Shown: piece by piece, positions 2,563-41,860 of the stretch
How positions within the stretch are numbered: the stretch's first letter is position 1
Layout of the letters: the number at the start of each line of letters is the position of its first letter
Assembly (NCBI RefSeq): GCF_000153725.1
Contig: NZ_DS022276.1
Span: forward strand, 3,071,094 to 3,113,203
DNA length: 42,110 nucleotides
Source of the DNA: Salipiger bermudensis HTCC2601
GTDB lineage: Bacteria; Pseudomonadota; Alphaproteobacteria; Rhodobacterales; Rhodobacteraceae
Direction: 5' to 3'
Made by a program: the position numbers and the translations under genes
The notes under the pieces: model-generated
The model's database searches: none
Seen by the model: only the letters and a program-made list of their open reading frames with translations
What the model was told of the DNA's origin: nothing

Positions 2563-4314
2563 ATGACGCGGACCCTGTATCACAGTCGCGGCGCGCTGCT
2601 GGCGCTTGCCCTCATCACCACCGCCGCGCTCTCGGGGGCGGTCTGGCACTATGGGTACGTGCAGGCGCTGGGCCCGCTTGCCGCGCGCGGGCAAAGCGAT
2701 CTCGAGCTTGCCTCCGAGCGCCTTGTCACCCAGCTGCAGCGCTTCCGCGAGTTCGCCGTGCTGAGCGCCGATCATCCGGCGCTGAGCGGGCTGCACCATT
2801 TCGGCTCGCGCCGTGCCGCCGAGGCGACCCTGCTGCGGGGGGCCGATCGCTCCGGTGCGGCGCTGGCGGCCTATGTCGATGCCACGGGCCGAATTCTTGC
2901 GGCCTCCGAGCCGGGTCTGCCCGAGTGGGTGCTGCAGGGAGAGCCCTTCAACCGCGCGCTCGACGGGGCGCTGGGCATCGCGCATGGCGCGGGACCGGAA
3001 GGCATCGACCGGGCCTTCTATTTCGCCGCACCGAGCTTTGGCATCGACGGGCGGGTGCGCGGGGCGCTGATCGTGGTGGTCGACATCGCGCGGCTGGAGC
3101 AGGATTGGCGCGGCTCGCTGCCGGCGGTGTTCTTCACCGATAGCGGCGGCGAGATCTTTGCCACCAACCGCTCCGAGCTTCTGGGCTGGCGCCGCACCGG
3201 CCCGACCGAGGTGGTCACCGCCGACGGCACACGGCGCGAGGTCACGTTGCGTGATCCCGGTGGGCATATCGTCTGGCAGCAGCGCTTCTCGCCCTATGTG
3301 CCGGCCCATGCGCTTCGGCTCGAGAGTGAGTTGCCGGTGATTGACATGACCGGCGTGCTGCTGATGGACACCGCCCCGGCCACGCGTCTTGCCGGGCTGC
3401 AGGCGGCGGTCGTGGCTTCGGTGGTGCTGTTCTTCGGCGCGCTGCTCTGGCTGGCGCTCGAACGACGGCGCGCGCTGGCCGAGGCCAACGTGGTGCTCGA
3501 GGAGCGGGTCTCGGCCCGCACCCGGGCGCTGCAGCAATCCAACATCGCCCTGCGTCGCGAGATCGCCGAGCGACAGGAGGCAGAGGCCGCGCTCAAGCGC
3601 GCGCAGGCCGAGCTGGTGCAGGCCTCGAAGCTGAGCGCGCTGGGCAAGATGAGCGCCGGGATCAGCCACGAGCTGAACCAGCCGCTGATGGCAATCCGGT
3701 CCTTTGCCGAGAACGGGACGGCCTTCCTGGATCGCGGCAAGCAGGAGCGCGCGGCGGAAAACCTCGGGCGCATCTCGGACATGGCGAACCGCATGGGGCG
3801 GATCATCAAGAACCTGCGCGCCTTCGCCAAGGCCGAGCCCGAGCCCGCCCGCCGGGTCGGGCTGGCGGCGGTGGTGGAAAGCGCGCTCGAGGTGCTGGCG
3901 CCGCGCATCGCCGAGACCGGAACGGTGATCGACTGGCAACGCCCCGAGACCACAACGGTGGTGATGGCGGGGGAGGTGCGGCTGGGGCAGGTTGTCATCA
4001 ACCTGCTCTCGAACGCGATGGATGCCATGGCCGACAGCGAGACCCGCGCCATCACCATCCGCGTCACGCGCGACGATGACGGCGGGCGCGTGATGCTCAG
4101 TGTGAGAGACACTGGTCCGGGGATTGTCGATCCGTCGCGCATCTTCGATCCGTTCTACTCCACCAAGGAAGTCGGTGCCGAAGAGGGGATGGGCCTCGGG
4201 CTGTCGATCTCCTATGGCATCGTGGAGGGGTTCGGCGGACGCCTGCGCGGCGAGAACGTCTCGGGCGGGGCCTGTTTCACCGTCGAACTGCTGCAGGCGA
4301 AGGAGATGGCATGA
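2563..4314 (+). CDS. dctB: C4-dicarboxylate transport sensor histidine kinase DctB
   Basis: A 583-residue membrane sensor kinase for C4-dicarboxylates such as succinate, malate and fumarate. TM1 is at about residues 8-28. A periplasmic double-PAS-like sensor domain follows (about 30-275), then TM2 at about 277-300. A coiled-coil linker rich in Arg/Glu (ERVSARTRALQQ) leads to the HisKA domain with GKMSAGISHELNQPLMAIRS; the phospho-accepting histidine is about residue 369. The HATPase domain has the N box VINLLSNAMDAM, G1 DTGPGI and G2 GMGLGLSI. The stop overlaps the dctD start by 4 bp (ATGA), so kinase and regulator are translationally coupled. Linkage to dctD and dctPQM supports the assignment. 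Confidence 0.93.
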   Translation: MTRTLYHSRGALLALALITTAALSGAVWHYGYVQALGPLAARGQSDLELASERLVTQLQRFREFAVLSADHPALSGLHHFGSRRAAEATLLRGADRSGAALAAYVDATGRILAASEPGLPEWVLQGEPFNRALDGALGIAHGAGPEGIDRAFYFAAPSFGIDGRVRGALIVVVDIARLEQDWRGSLPAVFFTDSGGEIFATNRSELLGWRRTGPTEVVTADGTRREVTLRDPGGHIVWQQRFSPYVPAHALRLESELPVIDMTGVLLMDTAPATRLAGLQAAVVASVVLFFGALLWLALERRRALAEANVVLEERVSARTRALQQSNIALRREIAERQEAEAALKRAQAELVQASKLSALGKMSAGISHELNQPLMAIRSFAENGTAFLDRGKQERAAENLGRISDMANRMGRIIKNLRAFAKAEPEPARRVGLAAVVESALEVLAPRIAETGTVIDWQRPETTTVVMAGEVRLGQVVINLLSNAMDAMADSETRAITIRVTRDDDGGRVMLSVRDTGPGIVDPSRIFDPFYSTKEVGAEEGMGLGLSISYGIVEGFGGRLRGENVSGGACFTVELLQAKEMA

Positions 4315-5536
4315 ACGTGCGCAGGGTGCTTCTGGTCGATGATGACGCGGCAGTGCGCGAGGCGCTGGGCCAGACCTTGGAGCTGGCCGAGTTCGACGCG
4401 ATCACCGCGGGCTCCTTCGTCGAGGCCAAGGACCGCATCGCGGCGCAATTCGAGGGGGTGATCGTCTCGGACATCCGGATGCCGGGGCGCGACGGGTTCC
4501 ACCTGCTCGATTACGCCCACGAGCAGGATGCCGAGCTGCCGGTGATCCTGCTCACCGGAGAGGGCGACATCCCGATGGCGGTGCGGGCCATGTCGGCGGG
4601 GGCCTTCGACTTCCTCGAGAAACCCTGCGCGCCGCAGGACCTGATCTCGGTCATCGAGCGCGCGCTGCGCACCCGCGGTCTGGTGCTCGAGAACCGGCGC
4701 CTCAAGGCCCAGCTCGAAACCGGCGACCCGGCGGCGCGGATGATCTTCGGGATCTCGCCGCAGTCCGAGACCCTGCGTGCACAGGCCCGCGCCGCCGCCC
4801 GTGCCGGCACCGATGTGCTGATCCGGGGCGCCCGTGGCTCGGGCATCTCGAAGGTGGCCGAGGTGGTGCACCTGTGCTCGACCCGGGCCAAGGGGCCGTT
4901 CGAGAAGCGCTCGGCGGCTGGTCTCGGGCGCGAGGGGCTCGAGGCGGTCTGGCAGGGCTGCGCCGGCGGCACGCTGTTTCTCGACGAGATCGCGCAGCTG
5001 CCGCTCGACACCCAGCTGGCGCTGCAGGACCGGCTCGAGGCGGGCGGCGCGCGGCTGATCGCCGGAAGCGTCGAGGATCTGGGGCAGGCGGCGGACGAGG
5101 GGCGGTTCTCGGCCGAGCTCTATTACCGGCTCGAGGTGATGCAGCTGCGCATTCCGGCGCTGGCGGAGCGGCCGGAGGACATCCCCGTGCTGTTTCGCCA
5201 TTACGTCGCGCAGGCGGCGGAGCAGTCTGGCCTGACACCGCCCGAGATCGGTGAGGAGGTCATCGCCGGGCTGATCGCGCGCGACTGGCCGGGCAATGCG
5301 CGGGCGCTGATGTCGGCGGCGATGCGCTTCGTGCTGGGACTGGGCGACGAGGACGCCGCTGGCGAGGGGCTGGGGCTCACCGAGCGGCTGGCGCAGGTCG
5401 AGCGCTCGCTGCTGGCCGATGCGCTCAAGCGCACCGGCGGTCAGGCCAGCGCGGCGGCCGAGATGCTCAAGCTGCCGCGCAAGACCTTCTACGACAAGCT
5501 GGCGAAATACGGGCTGAAGCCGGAAGAGTCCGCTGA
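4311..5536 (+). CDS. dctD: C4-dicarboxylate response regulator DctD, AAA+ domain degenerate; stop codon out of frame as given
   Basis: Response regulator partner of DctB. The receiver domain (residues 1-120) has acidic residues D10-D12, phospho-acceptor D54 in SDIRMPG and K104. The central AAA+ domain (about 140-370) is degenerate: the Walker A region near 171-180 reads GARGSGIS without the lysine, and the GAFTGA loop that contacts sigma-54 is absent. Walker B (TLFLDEI) and the FSAELYYRLEV segment remain. The C-terminus is a Fis-type helix-turn-helix (QASAAAEMLKLPRKTFYDKL). As given the frame does not stop: it runs through the dctP operators and continues in frame into DctP, 841 residues in all. 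A single missing T near 5528-5530 (GAGTCC for GAGTTCC) would restore an ending LKPEEFR and a TGA at 5534-5536, giving about 408 residues. I annotate that end and treat the fusion as an artefact or lesion. Confidence 0.85.
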
Positions 5537-5596
5537 GCCTCTCGGGCGCGTCGAACTTTCCTTGGCGATCACGGGCGACACGGCTGCGAATCGGAT

Positions 5597-5615
5597 TTGT
5601 GCGGATTCCGCACAA
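5597..5615. promoter_or_regulatory. Perfect 19-bp palindrome, probable DctD operator 1
   Basis: TTGTGCGGA-T-TCCGCACAA has two perfect 9-bp arms. It lies 211 bp upstream of the dctP start, in the position of the DctD upstream activator sites known from rhizobial dct systems. A related palindrome sits 31 bp downstream, centre to centre. Confidence 0.72.
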
Positions 5616-5629
5616 GCCGTGTCGAAGAC

Positions 5630-5644
5630 GTGCGGATTTCGCAC
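5630..5644. promoter_or_regulatory. Imperfect palindrome, probable DctD operator 2
   Basis: GTGCGGA-T-TTCGCAC repeats the core of the perfect palindrome at 5597-5615 with one mismatch between arms. The centres (5606 and 5637) are 31 bp apart, close to three helical turns, so two regulator dimers could bind the same DNA face. I found no good sigma-54 -24/-12 element between here and dctP, which fits a regulator lacking GAFTGA. Confidence 0.6.
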
Positions 5645-5825
5645 ATGTAGCGCGCGCAGTCGCAAGGTTGGGTATCACCGGTTAAGTATCCGTTTAAATG
5701 AAAAATATCGGAATCGACTCGCGTTTGAGCAATCCCTGATGCGTCTGGCGCATGGCTGTCTTGTGCCTAGCGAAGGGCCGGCAGGGGAGCGGGCCCTCGC
5801 TCATCATCATCTCGGGAGGATACCG

Positions 5826-6836
5826 ATGAAGAAGTTTCTGATGACCGCCGTGGCCGCTGCGGCCCTCACCACCGGCGCCACCGGCGCGATGGCGGCTTGC
5901 GACGATGGCGAAATCGTCATCAAGTTCAGCCACGTCACCAACACCGACAAGCACCCCAAAGGCATCGCCGCCTCGCTGCTGCAAGAGCGCGTGAACGAGG
6001 AAATGAACGGCAAGGCCTGCATGGAGGTCTACCCGAACTCCACGCTTTACAACGATGACCAGGTGCTCGAGGCGATGCTGAACGGCGACGTCCAGATGGC
6101 CGCCCCCTCGCTGTCCAAGTTCGAACAGTTCACCAAGGTGTTCCGCATCTTCGACCTGCCGTTCATGTTCTTGAACATGGAGGCCGTCGACGCGTTCCAG
6201 AACTCGGAAACCGGCCAGGAGATGAAGGAATCGATGGTCCGTCGCGGACTGCTCGGCCTTGGTTTCTGGCACAACGGCATGAAGCAGATGTCGGCCAACA
6301 AGCCGCTGATGATGCCCGAGGACGCTGCCGGGCTGAAGTTCCGCGTGCAGCCCTCCGAAGTGCTCAAGGCGCAGTTCGAGGCGCTTGACGCCAGCCCGCA
6401 GCCGATGGCCTTCTCGGAAGTCTACGGCGCGCTGCAGACCGGCGTGGTCGACGGCCAGGAGAACACCTGGTCCAACGTCTATGGCCAGAAGTTCTTCGAA
6501 GTGCAGGACGGCACCACCGAGACCAACCACGGTGTGCTCGACTACATGGTCGTGACCTCCGCCGACTGGTGGGACAGCCTCGACGAGGACGTGCGCAGCC
6601 AGCTCGAGACCATCGTCAACGAAGTGACCGAGACCCGCAACGCGGCGATCGCCGAGGTCGACGCCGAGAACCGCCAGGCGGTTCTGGATGCCGGCGGTGA
6701 GATCCGCGAACTGACCCCGGAGCAGCGTGAAGCCTGGGTCAACGCAATGAAGCCGGTCTGGGAGCAGTTTACCGACGATGTCGGCCAGGAGAACATCGAC
6801 GCCGCGCAGGCGTTCAACTCCGAAGTCCAGGGCTGA
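5826..6836 (+). CDS. dctP: TRAP transporter C4-dicarboxylate-binding protein DctP
   Basis: A 336-residue periplasmic solute receptor of the DctP family. The signal peptide covers about residues 1-24 (MKKF, hydrophobic core, cleavage after AMA). The mature part starts FSHVTNTDKHPKG, typical of family members. It carries the ligand-binding region GLKFRVQPSEVLKAQFEALDASPQPMAFSE with the conserved arginine, then YGALQTGVVDGQENTWSN. A strong GGGAGGA site at 5814-5820 sets the start, and in-frame translation upstream passes through non-coding operator DNA. It is first in the dctPQM operon and followed by two hairpins before dctQ, as expected for a receptor needed in excess over the membrane subunits. 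Confidence 0.96.
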   Translation: MKKFLMTAVAAAALTTGATGAMAACDDGEIVIKFSHVTNTDKHPKGIAASLLQERVNEEMNGKACMEVYPNSTLYNDDQVLEAMLNGDVQMAAPSLSKFEQFTKVFRIFDLPFMFLNMEAVDAFQNSETGQEMKESMVRRGLLGLGFWHNGMKQMSANKPLMMPEDAAGLKFRVQPSEVLKAQFEALDASPQPMAFSEVYGALQTGVVDGQENTWSNVYGQKFFEVQDGTTETNHGVLDYMVVTSADWWDSLDEDVRSQLETIVNEVTETRNAAIAEVDAENRQAVLDAGGEIRELTPEQREAWVNAMKPVWEQFTDDVGQENIDAAQAFNSEVQG

Positions 6837-38816: not shown

Positions 38817-38900
38817 TTATCCACAGAAAAGATTCCCCTGTGGACAACTTTGAATTGTGTTTTTTCTGTGTCTTTTAGGTCTTAATGTGCATGTGGATAA
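38817..38900. promoter_or_regulatory. Cluster of three DnaA-box-like sequences
   Basis: TTATCCACA (38817-38825) is a perfect consensus DnaA box. TGTGGACAA (38839-38847) is a one-mismatch box on the other strand, and TGTGGATAA (38892-38900) is a perfect one on the other strand. They flank an AT-rich T-tract. The last box lies in the spacer of the candidate promoter at 38884-38912. Confidence 0.65.
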
Positions 38901-39007: not shown

Positions 39008-39775
39008 ATGTCTGCACAACTCAAGCATGAAATCATTGAAGAATTCGCCAACGACTTCGGCGGCGACATGTTCGGTGGGGAAGGTGCCTCGATGTTCACC
39101 TCCTGCGCCGCACCCGAAAGCTTCGGCAGCGCACTGACCGGCGAGGCTGTGGATATGTTTACCTCTTGCGCCGCACCGGTGACCGGCTCCGCTGCCACAG
39201 GTGAGGCAACCGGCCTCTACACGTCCTGCGCCACGCCGCTGACCGGCTCGACCGCGACCGGCGAAGCCACCGGCCTGTTCACGTCCTGCGCCGAGCCCAA
39301 GGCTTCCGAGGCCCTGACCGGCGACGCGGTGGAAATGTTCACCTCCTGCGCCGCGCCGACCACCAGCTCGACCGCGACCGGCGATGTCGTGGGCCTGTTC
39401 ACTTCGTGTGCCACCCCGACCACCGGCTCGACCGCGACCGGCGAAGCCACCGGCCTGTTCACCTCCTGCGCCGAGCCGAAAGCGTCCGAGACCCTGACCG
39501 GCGATGCCGTCGAGATGGTCACCTCCTGCGCCGCTCCGACCACCAGCTCGGCCGATGCCGGCGACGCGGTCGAGATGTTCACCTCCTGCGCGACCCCGAC
39601 CACCAGTTCGGCTGACGCAGGCGACGTGACCGGCCTGTTCACCTCCTGCGCCGAGCCGAAGGCCTCCGAGGCCCTGACCGGCGACGCTGTCGAGATGGTC
39701 ACTTCCTGCGCGGCTCCCCGCGACAGCCGTGCCGTCAACGGTGAAGTCACCGGCTCCTTCACCTCCTGCGCATAA
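39008..39775 (+). CDS. TSCA-repeat protein, possible multi-core precursor peptide
   Basis: A 255-residue protein I cannot assign to a characterised family. A helical acidic leader (MSAQLKHEIIEEFANDF, then GGDMFGGEGASM) of 29 residues precedes twelve copies of [FYV]TSCA. Spacing is 20 residues, except 21 once. The consensus unit is xP-x(2)-S-x(3)-[TA]-G-[ED]-[AV]-x(2)-[ML]-[FYV]-TSCA. All twelve cysteines are in these motifs and the chain ends on the last Ala. Residues 76-255 are three copies of a 60-residue module whose units begin T, E and A in order. There is no signal peptide or membrane segment. The ATG at 39008 follows AGGAAGGG; a GTG at 38969 with GGAGGAAA would add a basic MPKRKR start. 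It is first in an operon with an unknown helical protein and an EamA exporter. A metal-binding scaffold is an alternative. Confidence 0.85.
   Translation: MSAQLKHEIIEEFANDFGGDMFGGEGASMFTSCAAPESFGSALTGEAVDMFTSCAAPVTGSAATGEATGLYTSCATPLTGSTATGEATGLFTSCAEPKASEALTGDAVEMFTSCAAPTTSSTATGDVVGLFTSCATPTTGSTATGEATGLFTSCAEPKASETLTGDAVEMVTSCAAPTTSSADAGDAVEMFTSCATPTTSSADAGDVTGLFTSCAEPKASEALTGDAVEMVTSCAAPRDSRAVNGEVTGSFTSCA
39095..39772 (+). repeat. In-frame tandem repeats: 60-bp units, 180-bp super-repeat x3
   Basis: Units of 60 bp each encode one TSCA motif. The 180-bp modules are 39233-39412, 39413-39592 and 39593-39772. Silent sites are largely conserved between modules, which points to recent duplication or homogenisation. 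The copy number is likely to vary between strains. Confidence 0.85.
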
Positions 39776-39792
39776 GCCAGGATGCCATCGCT

Positions 39793-39822
39793 GCGGGCGT
39801 CTTATGGGGATGAGACGCCCGC
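39793..39822 (+). promoter_or_regulatory. Strong intercistronic hairpin after the repeat gene
   Basis: GCGGGCGTCT (39793-39802) pairs perfectly with AGACGCCCGC (39813-39822) around a 10-nt loop, without a T-run. It lies 17 nt after the stop and 37 nt before the next start. It probably stabilises or cuts the mRNA so that the repeat protein is made in excess. Confidence 0.75.
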
Positions 39823-39859
39823 GTGCGGCCGGAAACAGAAAGACACAGGGAAATCAGTC

Positions 39860-40918
39860 ATGACCAACGTTATCGCACTTCGCCCGAAGGCCCCCGTCGC
39901 GTCGCAGGATGCCGGAGTTGCAGCGCTCGTGAAGAGCTTTGCCACCAGCCGGCGGCGAGAGGATGACGTGTTCTGGCTGAAGGAAAACGCAGAGCTTCTC
40001 AACATCCTGGAATGCACCGGGACCTACGTGCCCCGGGCCGCGCTGGCGCCGCTGCGCGGGTTCTACAAATCGGTGGAAGACCGCATGGCCTTCTTCCCGC
40101 AATACTACCGCTTCCTGCTCTCGCTCACCCTCGATCTCGAGGATCTGGGCATGGAGGGCGACACCGGCGCCAAGCTCACCGAGCGCGCCGCGCGCCACGG
40201 CTTTGCCGATGCCGAGCTTTCGGACCTGCAGCGCATGGAAGCCCGCCGCCTTCTGGCCCGCCGCGGCCATGTGAGCGAGGATGACGAGGGGCTGGCCGAC
40301 CGCCTGCGCGCCTTCTGCGCCCGTTCGCAGACCTTCGCTCTGCCGAACAAGAAGGCCGCCTACGAGCTGACCCACATCGTGTTCTACCTCAGCGAATACG
40401 GCCGTCAGGATCCCGGCCTTGACGAGGAGGCGATCAACAGCCTCTACTTCGCCGGCAACCTGGCCTATCTGGACCAGAACTCCGACCTGCTGGCCGAGAT
40501 CTGCATCGCCCTGCGCTATGCCCGCGAGGTGCCGCCGCCGCTTTGGACGATCTGGCTCGACCGCGAGACCCATCTGTTTACCGTGGAGAGTGGCGAGACC
40601 GTCTCGGTCGCCGATGATTACCACGACTTCCTCGTCTGCAACTGGCACGCCTCGGTGATCGGCGGCAAGCCGTTCCACAAGCCGCTGGAGGGCGGGCGGA
40701 TGCGCTTCCAGCGGGCACAGCGCGTCGCGCCGCTGCGCGAACTGTCGGAAGCGCTCTTCGCCGAAGGCTCTGCCCGCAGCGCCGACTGGGCCGGGATGCG
40801 CGAGCGCATGGGGGCGCGGCTGTCGCCGCAGACCCTCGATGTGGTCGACCAGCTTGCCGATCATTCCCCGCGCTTCGACGCATTCTTTGAGGGCTTTGCC
40901 CGGGCAGGTAACGCATGA
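39860..40918 (+). CDS. Conserved-looking helical protein of unknown function in the TSCA operon
   Basis: A 352-residue soluble protein, predicted mostly helical, with no transmembrane segment or signal. I do not recognise a characterised family. Notable blocks are ENAELLNILECTGTYVP, FYKSVEDRMAFFPQYYRFLLSLTLDLEDLG, AAYELTHIVFYLSEYG and DDYHDFLVCNWHASVIGGKPFHK. The LTHxxFYL and YHD...CNWH blocks hold His, Asp and Cys residues that could form a metal or catalytic site, and they recall the ELTH-type blocks of some natural-product-cluster proteins of unknown function (memory, unverified). The start at 39860 gives MTNVIALRPKAP; the frame upstream crosses the hairpin. It ends in an ATGA overlap with the exporter gene. 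Likely a partner or modifying protein for the repeat protein (inference). Confidence 0.8.
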   Translation: MTNVIALRPKAPVASQDAGVAALVKSFATSRRREDDVFWLKENAELLNILECTGTYVPRAALAPLRGFYKSVEDRMAFFPQYYRFLLSLTLDLEDLGMEGDTGAKLTERAARHGFADAELSDLQRMEARRLLARRGHVSEDDEGLADRLRAFCARSQTFALPNKKAAYELTHIVFYLSEYGRQDPGLDEEAINSLYFAGNLAYLDQNSDLLAEICIALRYAREVPPPLWTIWLDRETHLFTVESGETVSVADDYHDFLVCNWHASVIGGKPFHKPLEGGRMRFQRAQRVAPLRELSEALFAEGSARSADWAGMRERMGARLSPQTLDVVDQLADHSPRFDAFFEGFARAGNA

Positions 40919-41799
40919 ACGGGACACGCACAGCCATCGTGGGCGCTGCCCTTGTCGCGCTCTACACCGGTGCCATCGCTGCGGCGGACGGCATCACCAA
41001 GCTCATCGCCGGTGGCTACGCCGCGCCGCAGCTCTTCGCGCTGTCGGCGGGGCTCGTGCTGCTGATGTCCCTCGGCGCGTCGCGCAAGAACGGCGAGACG
41101 CTGCGCACCACCTGCCGCGGCGCCATGGCGTTGCGCGCGTTGCTCACCGTGGTTTCGGCGCTGAGCTTCTTTCAGGCCTTCCGCCTGCTGCCCTTCGCCG
41201 ATGTCTTCCTGTTCATCGCGCTGGTGCCGCTGATCGCCGCCGCGATGTCGGGCCCCGCGCTCGGCGAGCCGGTGCGCCCGGCGGTCTGGATGGCGCTGCT
41301 GCTCGGCGCGGGCGGGCTGCTCTTCGTGATGCCGGCAGGCGAGCTTTCGCTCGATCCGGGCCACCTCTGGGCGTTGTTCGCCGCCTTCACCGGCACCGGC
41401 TCGATGATCGCCGCGCGCTACATCGCCCGCATCGAGCGCGTGCCGCTGGCGCAGGTGTTCTGGCCGAACCTCGCGCTGATGCTGAGCATGGCCGTGGCGC
41501 TGCCGTTCGTCTGGCAACCGATGCCGCTGGCGGATCTGGGCTGGGTCGTGACCTACGCGGTGTTCCTCTTCGCGGCCCGCTGGCTCTCGGTCGAGGCGCT
41601 GCGGCTGCTGCCGGCTTACGTGGCAACGCCGCTGATGAACCTGCAATTCGTCTGGATGGTTGTGATCGGCTGGTTCGGCTTCGGCGAGATTCCCGCCGTG
41701 GGCACCATGCTGGGCGTCACGCTGGTGGTCGGCTCGGGCCTGTGGCTGATCTTCGACGAGGCGGTGACACAGGAGCGCCGCAGCTCGGCCAACGCCTGA
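40915..41799 (+). CDS. DMT-superfamily (EamA) transporter
   Basis: A 294-residue inner-membrane transporter with about ten hydrophobic segments in two EamA halves (about 5-135 and 150-285). Features are AADGITKLIAGGYAAPQLFALSAG, a short basic loop ASRKNGE, FFQAFRLLPFADVFLFIALVPLIAA and the second-half LQFVWMVVIGWFGFGEIP. EamA proteins usually export small metabolites such as amino acids or their derivatives. Its 4-bp overlap with the preceding gene ties it to the TSCA-repeat operon, where it may export a product released from the repeats. It is followed by a strong terminator. Confidence 0.93.
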   Translation: MNGTRTAIVGAALVALYTGAIAAADGITKLIAGGYAAPQLFALSAGLVLLMSLGASRKNGETLRTTCRGAMALRALLTVVSALSFFQAFRLLPFADVFLFIALVPLIAAAMSGPALGEPVRPAVWMALLLGAGGLLFVMPAGELSLDPGHLWALFAAFTGTGSMIAARYIARIERVPLAQVFWPNLALMLSMAVALPFVWQPMPLADLGWVVTYAVFLFAARWLSVEALRLLPAYVATPLMNLQFVWMVVIGWFGFGEIPAVGTMLGVTLVVGSGLWLIFDEAVTQERRSSANA

Positions 41800-41819: not shown

Positions 41820-41860
41820 CCGCCCCGCAGCGCCAAGCCGCTGCGGGGCGGTTGCGTTTT
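41820..41860 (+). terminator. Terminator of the TSCA-repeat operon
   Basis: CCGCCCCGCAGCG (41820-41832) pairs perfectly with CGCTGCGGGGCGG (41839-41851) around a 6-nt loop and runs into TTGCGTTTT. It closes the operon. Confidence 0.9.

Follow-up and report, generated by a model that had tools for sequence, protein, structure and literature searches.

The enzymes of microviridin biosynthesis are of the ATP-grasp type, and the lasso-peptide epimerase MslH is of the metallophosphatase type. Microviridins are made from one precursor that carries several cores, all of which are served by one partner enzyme (available excerpt of PMC5934393), and fungal precursors processed by Kex2 likewise carry repeated cores in a single chain (available excerpt of PMC7329392). 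MslH offers a proposed parallel for the epimerization of ribosomal peptides (available excerpt of PMC10406935), and a DUF6895 protein is titled a lasso-peptide epimerase in the accessible part of Shi et al. (ACS Catal 2026). The locus described here occupies positions 39008-41799 of a 42,110-nucleotide stretch (the window) of Salipiger bermudensis HTCC2601, contig NZ_DS022276.1. It consists of three genes on the + strand, the products of which were analyzed through open reading frames (ORFs), Pfam, NCBIfam, and AlphaFold2. It likely encodes a multi-core system of the type of ribosomally synthesized and post-translationally modified peptides (RiPPs), in which a DUF6902 protein would be the core-modifying enzyme. 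No description of this system was recognized in the accessible portions of the literature on TSCA repeats, Rhodobacteraceae RiPPs, DUF6902/DUF6895, and peptide epimerases, and the one full-text literature search made with DUF6902 and its accession yielded no paper.

As in the microviridins, one precursor with several cores stands beside one partner for all of them, but the cores of the window are tetrapeptide-like and the partner is a DUF6902 protein. In a scan confined to 25 of the window's ORFs, no ATP-grasp, LanM, YcaO, radical SAM, or MNIO enzyme was matched; for the last four families, this agrees with a preliminary description of the locus made from its sequence. The fungal precursors are cut by Kex2, whereas the system of the window has no known linked protease. 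Unlike MslH, the DUF6902 protein matches only DUF6902 and DUF6895 in Pfam, and its AlphaFold2 model is nearly all helical (pLDDT 93.5), as the preliminary description had expected. With the DUF6895 lasso epimerase family, it shares seven residues and a score above the DUF6895 cut-off, and most of the DUF6895 genes examined also follow small precursor-like genes, but the window's precursor differs in its leader and in carrying many cores. Among the same 25 ORFs, neither a lasso cyclase nor a leader peptidase was matched, and the locus, with its multi-core precursor, does not fall within the lasso peptides.

The precursor gene (39008..39775, + strand) encodes a protein of 255 amino acids with a short acidic leader and twelve units ending in [FYV]-TSCA. 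The T of the first motif is residue 31, the spacing is 20 residues in ten gaps and 21 in one, and the C-terminus coincides with the last motif. The residue before TSCA is F in nine copies, Y in one, and V in two, and all 12 cysteines of the protein lie within the motifs. The motifs, the confinement of the cysteines, and the chain end were all as first reported. The leader had been called acidic and helical; its acidity was read from the sequence, but residues 1-21 were modeled by AlphaFold2 without a helix and with pLDDT below 50. Because the TSCA codons differ in 55 of the 66 copy pairs, with identical amino acids in all 66, and the linkers are only 43% alike over the 12 positions compared, the identity of TSCA seems to be maintained by selection on the protein. 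The repeat copies look selected and not recently duplicated. The window precursor matched no Pfam or NCBIfam family above its cut-off, and in the 27 precursors scanned, matches were scattered, with no family in more than 2 of the 27; these were taken as chance matches of low-complexity sequence. A gene-encoded precursor with leader and core is thus recognizable by its architecture, that is, by sequence and by core and linker statistics, with a putative role for the leader.

The precursor gene is consistently paired with DUF6902. In a survey of 394 sampled genomes of the window's family, DUF6902 was found in 108, so that about one quarter carry the pair, and the precursor profile matched 99 genomes, all of them within those 108. 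The preliminary description had considered that the repeat gene might occur widely without its partners; DUF6902 was present in all 99 genomes that carry the repeat gene. The repeat gene lies 5' of DUF6902 in all 31 loci of the first search and precedes it in 80 of 80 named loci, which are the best 80 of 337 relatives (L050, L064, and L083 are partly N-masked, and the worst, L064, was checked by eye). Nine DUF6902 genomes gave no profile match. Six of these have a divergent precursor directly upstream, with 2 to 8 copies (YIAGL twice, MMCCS twice, MMSCS twice, SPSC seven times plus one SPSV, LMPTSN four times, and AQSFSAP twice), two (G039 and G288) have no precursor visible near DUF6902, and one (G139) is a contig-end fragment. 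The closest named relatives of the second protein, with 96-98% identity, are Salipiger bermudensis strains. DUF6902 is rare beyond the family: three of 230 class genomes scored above the cut-off, each of them belonging to the window's own family, with one more genome just below, and no match was found among PLSDB plasmids at E 1e-5. These findings define the locus as a two-gene core of precursor and DUF6902 with a frequent EamA gene, and the repeat protein and DUF6902 are very probably a precursor and its modifying partner.

Core statistics were obtained from 78 proteins, including that of the window, with L050, L064, and L083 left out for their masked bases. Units were delimited without reference to the core by anchoring on the conserved Gly and hydrophobic residue, which gave 652 core-blind units from 77 of the 78 proteins. 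For codon and linker figures, units were located via the core itself, and the core columns, being circular there, were not used. At the four core positions of the core-blind units, identity was 0.89-0.91 within a protein versus 0.37-0.79 between proteins, the highest between-protein value (0.79) being that of core position 2, which is usually Ser. At the six outer linker positions, identity within a protein was 0.30-0.42. Unit pairs matching at 3 of 11 linker positions had identical cores in 350 of 375 cases within proteins versus 1258 of 11748 between proteins. Complete uniformity of the core was seen in 48 of the 77 proteins. The remaining 29 mostly reflect misplaced anchors in our own reading, while L094, L108, and L120 genuinely mix two cores and L071 has a single variant copy.

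Twenty-two main-core types occur among the 78 proteins, and at least 30 changes are required on the DUF6902 tree of 78 rows, on which the 19 Trp-core proteins form one clade. The commonest cores among 77 proteins are FTSGS (21), FTSWS (12), FSSGS (9), FTSGA (7), and FTSGL (5). FTSGA and FTSCA are both found within Salipiger, a core switch between close species. The contrast between within-protein and between-protein identity, together with the core changes on the tree, suggests that an array tends to switch its core in concert while the linkers drift, and such switching between close species would fit species-specific peptide signals or self-recognition tags. The copy number of repeat arrays changes easily, and the array could have arisen by neutral tandem-repeat expansion with gene conversion, without a selected product. 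However, codons differ in 2482 of 2901 same-core pairs within proteins, which places the conserved identity at the protein level, and the repeat gene is found only in DUF6902 genomes; neutral expansion is the least probable of the explanations considered here. A cysteine-rich scaffold or metal-binding protein, as the preliminary description had offered as an alternative, would account for the twelve cysteines of the window species, all in the motif. Cys occurs in 9 of the 22 core types and is missing from the other 13, and the main core lacks it in 64 of the 78 proteins and contains it in 14. Since most main cores are without Cys, a scaffold is refuted as the general function and very improbable overall, although a local specialization could survive.

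The number of copies per precursor ranges from 2 to 20. The repeat protein might also act intact, as a beta-solenoid or flexible scaffold with DUF6902 as its chaperone or binding partner and nothing excised. The AlphaFold2 model of the window precursor is indeed a beta-solenoid with a mean pLDDT of 69 and 10-residue blocks reaching pLDDT 83 near the C-terminus, and the spacing is mostly 20 or 21 residues. However, confidence in this model is low to middling, it has no fold match in the PDB with E <0.001, and a bias of AlphaFold2 towards solenoids in perfect repeats is reported in the available excerpt of PMC11795689. Spacings of 8, 13, and 17 residues and two-core precursors of 57 and 65 amino acids also occur, besides the wide range of copy number. 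A structural repeat would also leave the joint switching of cores amid drifting linkers unexplained. The irregular spacings, the two-core versions, and the AlphaFold2 bias weaken the intact-protein explanation without removing it, and it is considered unlikely. In contrast, the fixed pairing, the uniformity of cores within proteins, their variation between species, and the 2 to 20 copies lend strong support to the reading of the protein as a multi-core precursor.

The second gene (39860..40918, + strand) encodes the DUF6902 protein, which is 352 amino acids long. It matches DUF6902 (PF21843) with 529.9 bits against a cut-off of 27, residues 1-349 covering profile positions 1-351 of 351, and in part (residues 30-227) DUF6895 (PF21836) with 70.2 bits against a cut-off of 23.8. 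Comparison of the two profiles aligned 185 columns (E 3.6e-7, probability 92.9), and the protein is 15-18% identical to eight DUF6895 sequences. W39, E45, E119, H172, D209, E213, and H255 are common to DUF6902 and DUF6895, and all of these except W39 are candidate active residues of DUF6902 on the basis of conservation. No relative was found in the PDB by sequence. Fold searches with the model gave no clear match, and an alpha/alpha-toroid is a candidate fold; LanC and other RiPP enzymes were not among the matches listed, which excludes nothing. The preliminary description had considered that the enzyme might be encoded elsewhere. This is probably wrong, as the protein of the second gene is a member of the DUF6902/DUF6895 group, in which one protein bears the title of lasso epimerase in the accessible part of its source.

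The candidate residues were surveyed in 119 DUF6902 proteins, namely that of the window, 80 from named loci, 30 from the first search, and 8 without a precursor profile match. Both H172 and D209 are retained in 117 of them; the total of 119 does not equal independent species, as some genomes appear twice under different identifiers. The only two exceptions, L160 and L165, are also the only two without a visible precursor. That the substrate and candidate active residues have disappeared together in these two genomes supports an action of DUF6902 on the precursor. The presence of DUF6902 in every precursor genome and the loss of key residues in the two precursor-less copies also make it a candidate for a dedicated, co-encoded maturation enzyme. 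With these two natural knock-outs and six conserved residues at hand, the mechanism of DUF6902 can be tested directly. Of the two relics, L165 has kept E213 and H255, and L160 has lost both.

In the proposed pathway, the repeat protein would be a precursor with a leader and twelve identical TSCA tetrapeptide cores, each after an aromatic or aliphatic residue, and G[DE]xxxx[FYV] ahead of each core would be the likely recognition sequence. DUF6902 would bind the precursor and then modify the cores, the linkers would be cut by unlinked proteases, and the EamA protein, translationally coupled to DUF6902, would export the small product. A pathway of this multi-core RiPP type with some modification of the cores appears probable, and it overlaps with the alternative that differs from it only in chemistry. 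Release and export of a small peptide may be judged about evenly balanced. As for the chemistry, core side chains vary and the YIAGL core (G041) has no Ser, Thr, or Cys, so that a reaction at the backbone alpha carbon is probable, most likely epimerization to D-residues. Epimerization is favored because the related DUF6895 protein is titled an epimerase in the available excerpt, and by this analogy it is a plausible, tentative assignment. Alternatively, the same precursor-enzyme pair may rely on another DUF6902 reaction, for example side-chain modification, or cleavage of the linkers by DUF6902 acting as the protease. The conserved residues E, H, D, E, and H would be compatible with a metal site or with general acid-base chemistry, there is no linked protease, and core position 2 is usually Ser. 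Against this stand the YIAGL core, which lacks Ser, Thr, and Cys, and the epimerase title of the sole relative with a named function, known from part of its source; another chemistry is a real possibility, though a somewhat doubtful one. If DUF6902 does modify the cores, the peptide class that it defines would rest on a two-gene system that is small and easy to clone and whose cores are swapped in nature.

The third gene (40915..41799, + strand) encodes an EamA-family transporter of 294 amino acids. It matches Pfam EamA in two stretches with 51.1 bits against a cut-off of 28.2, and its ATG lies inside the DUF6902 stop codon, so that an ATGA overlap (40915-40918) joins the two genes, as originally noted. 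EamA lies 3' of DUF6902 in 62 of the 80 named loci, and in 59 of these its start codon overlaps the DUF6902 stop codon at an offset of -3. Thirteen of the 18 loci without EamA are named Marivita, and two more fall inside the Marivita clade. In the EamA-less loci, DUF6902 is followed by genes that we take to be erpA-like and dgt-like. EamA is a close yet dispensable partner of DUF6902. The three-gene operon first reported therefore stands as to its core of precursor and DUF6902 but not as to EamA as a fixed member. The closing terminator was also found, as a terminator-like hairpin of 13 pairs with a T-rich tail at 41820..41851 (+ strand), just past the reported end at 41799. Taken together, the initial observation of the locus was confirmed, and its interpretation was supported in part and sharpened.

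Nine DUF6895-like loci outside DUF6902 proper were examined on plasmids and in distant genomes, with G469, G480, G801, G817, and G910 left out as below the cut-off. Named hosts are Kitasatospora, Pseudalkalibacillus, and Streptomyces. In seven of the nine, a small leader-core-like gene lies directly before the DUF6895-like gene: L125 (7104-7703), L126 (7437-7868), L127 (7200-7685), L169 (1001-1234, reverse complement), L173 (5708-5905), L174 (5398-5658), and L175 (5329-5685). By eye, their products follow the pattern L..SGIID...T.DQLV.A and then a C-terminal aromatic stretch such as YVL, with two units in some. An alignment of eight small-gene sequences from six of these loci had a mean column identity of only 24%. 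The four small genes scanned with Pfam (L125 twice, L126, and L127) gave no match above the cut-off, and the seven scanned with NCBIfam (all but L169) gave no match. L176 differs in its small gene and has a tandem pair of DUF6895 genes, and no precursor is evident beside the DUF6895-like gene of L128. Leader-core-like genes before DUF6895 are thus found in Actinomycetota, Bacillota, and the window's own phylum. If the new RiPP class outlined below is real, DUF6895/DUF6902 would represent a superfamily of peptide-modifying proteins that is widespread and has leader-core precursors of its own in Actinomycetota, Bacillota, and Pseudomonadota. Two of these loci have further neighbors. In L176 (4718-6603, Streptomyces fungicidicus plasmid p1), the tandem DUF6895 genes come after a 62-amino-acid frame and a 231-amino-acid protein without a Pfam match, and they adjoin a P450 gene and a serine hydrolase. 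In L125 (4490-6406), the DUF6895 cluster is preceded by genes for a C39/C70-like peptidase and an O-methyltransferase.

The precursor promoter carries DnaA-box sequences, and control by DnaA is putative. In the window, box 1 (38817..38825, + strand) is an exact TTATCCACA, box 2 (38839..38847, - strand) has one mismatch and lies 22 bp from box 1, and box 3 (38892..38900, - strand) is exact and lies 53 bp from box 2. Counts were made in about 350 nt before the precursor in 74 of the 78 loci, as L063, L071, L080, and L098 have too little upstream sequence. The exact sequence occurs 1.22 times per region, whereas shuffled sequences gave 0.004 and random segments taken from the same loci 0.011. Exact boxes are present in 56 of the 74 regions; when one mismatch is allowed, 62 have one or more boxes and 59 two or more. 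Measured start to start, a facing (inverted) spacing of 22 bp was found 27 times, a same-direction spacing of 53 bp 24 times, and same-direction pairs at 11-12 bp five times. The median distance from the start of the last box to the precursor ATG is 110 nt, and it is 116 nt in the window. The boxes are absent in 12 of the 74 loci, chiefly in the Alloyangia and Shimia groups, and are thus not essential to the system. No box was found at the two precursor-less loci, and five of the six divergent-precursor loci have at least one box within one mismatch, L161 having none.

An xth-like gene lies divergently 5' of the precursor in 76 of the 80 named loci; in the remaining four, the upstream sequence is no longer than about 1 kb. 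The sequence upstream of xth was compared in 29 loci minus L183, L185, and L210 (no xth start), that is, in 11 loci with and 15 without DUF6902. At least two boxes were found in 7 of the 11 with DUF6902 versus none of the 15 without, one of which has a single near-match. The boxes were rejected as part of the xth promoter, since none of the 15 genomes that lack the system has paired boxes before xth. A role as a mark of oriC was also not supported, with dnaA 1.7 Mb distant and paired boxes missing at xth where the system is absent. The whole genome (5.48 Mb) contains 15 exact boxes and 14 copies of the reversed pattern, about equal numbers. The sequence TTATCCACA is the consensus DnaA box of E. 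coli, the DnaA protein of which prefers pairs 2-3 bp apart (available excerpt of PMC11317965), whereas the main spacings here are 22 and 53 bp. Because of this preference, it is possible that a protein other than DnaA reads the same sequence. The promoter poses a separate question, namely why a peptide pathway would be placed under the replication initiator. In its full form, a new roseobacter RiPP class, in which a replication-linked (DnaA-box) promoter drives a multi-core precursor that DUF6902 would convert into D-residue oligopeptides for export by EamA, is rather improbable. The only other pair of exact boxes within 100 bp in the genome lies at 2993 and 3079 of L211, before a DUF6456 gene (1856-2968).

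Elsewhere in the window, positions 4311-6836 form a single open frame in which a sigma-54 response regulator (residues 6-400) is fused to a DctP TRAP solute-binding domain (residues 539-820). Such a fusion is odd for a periplasmic protein; DctQ and DctM come next.

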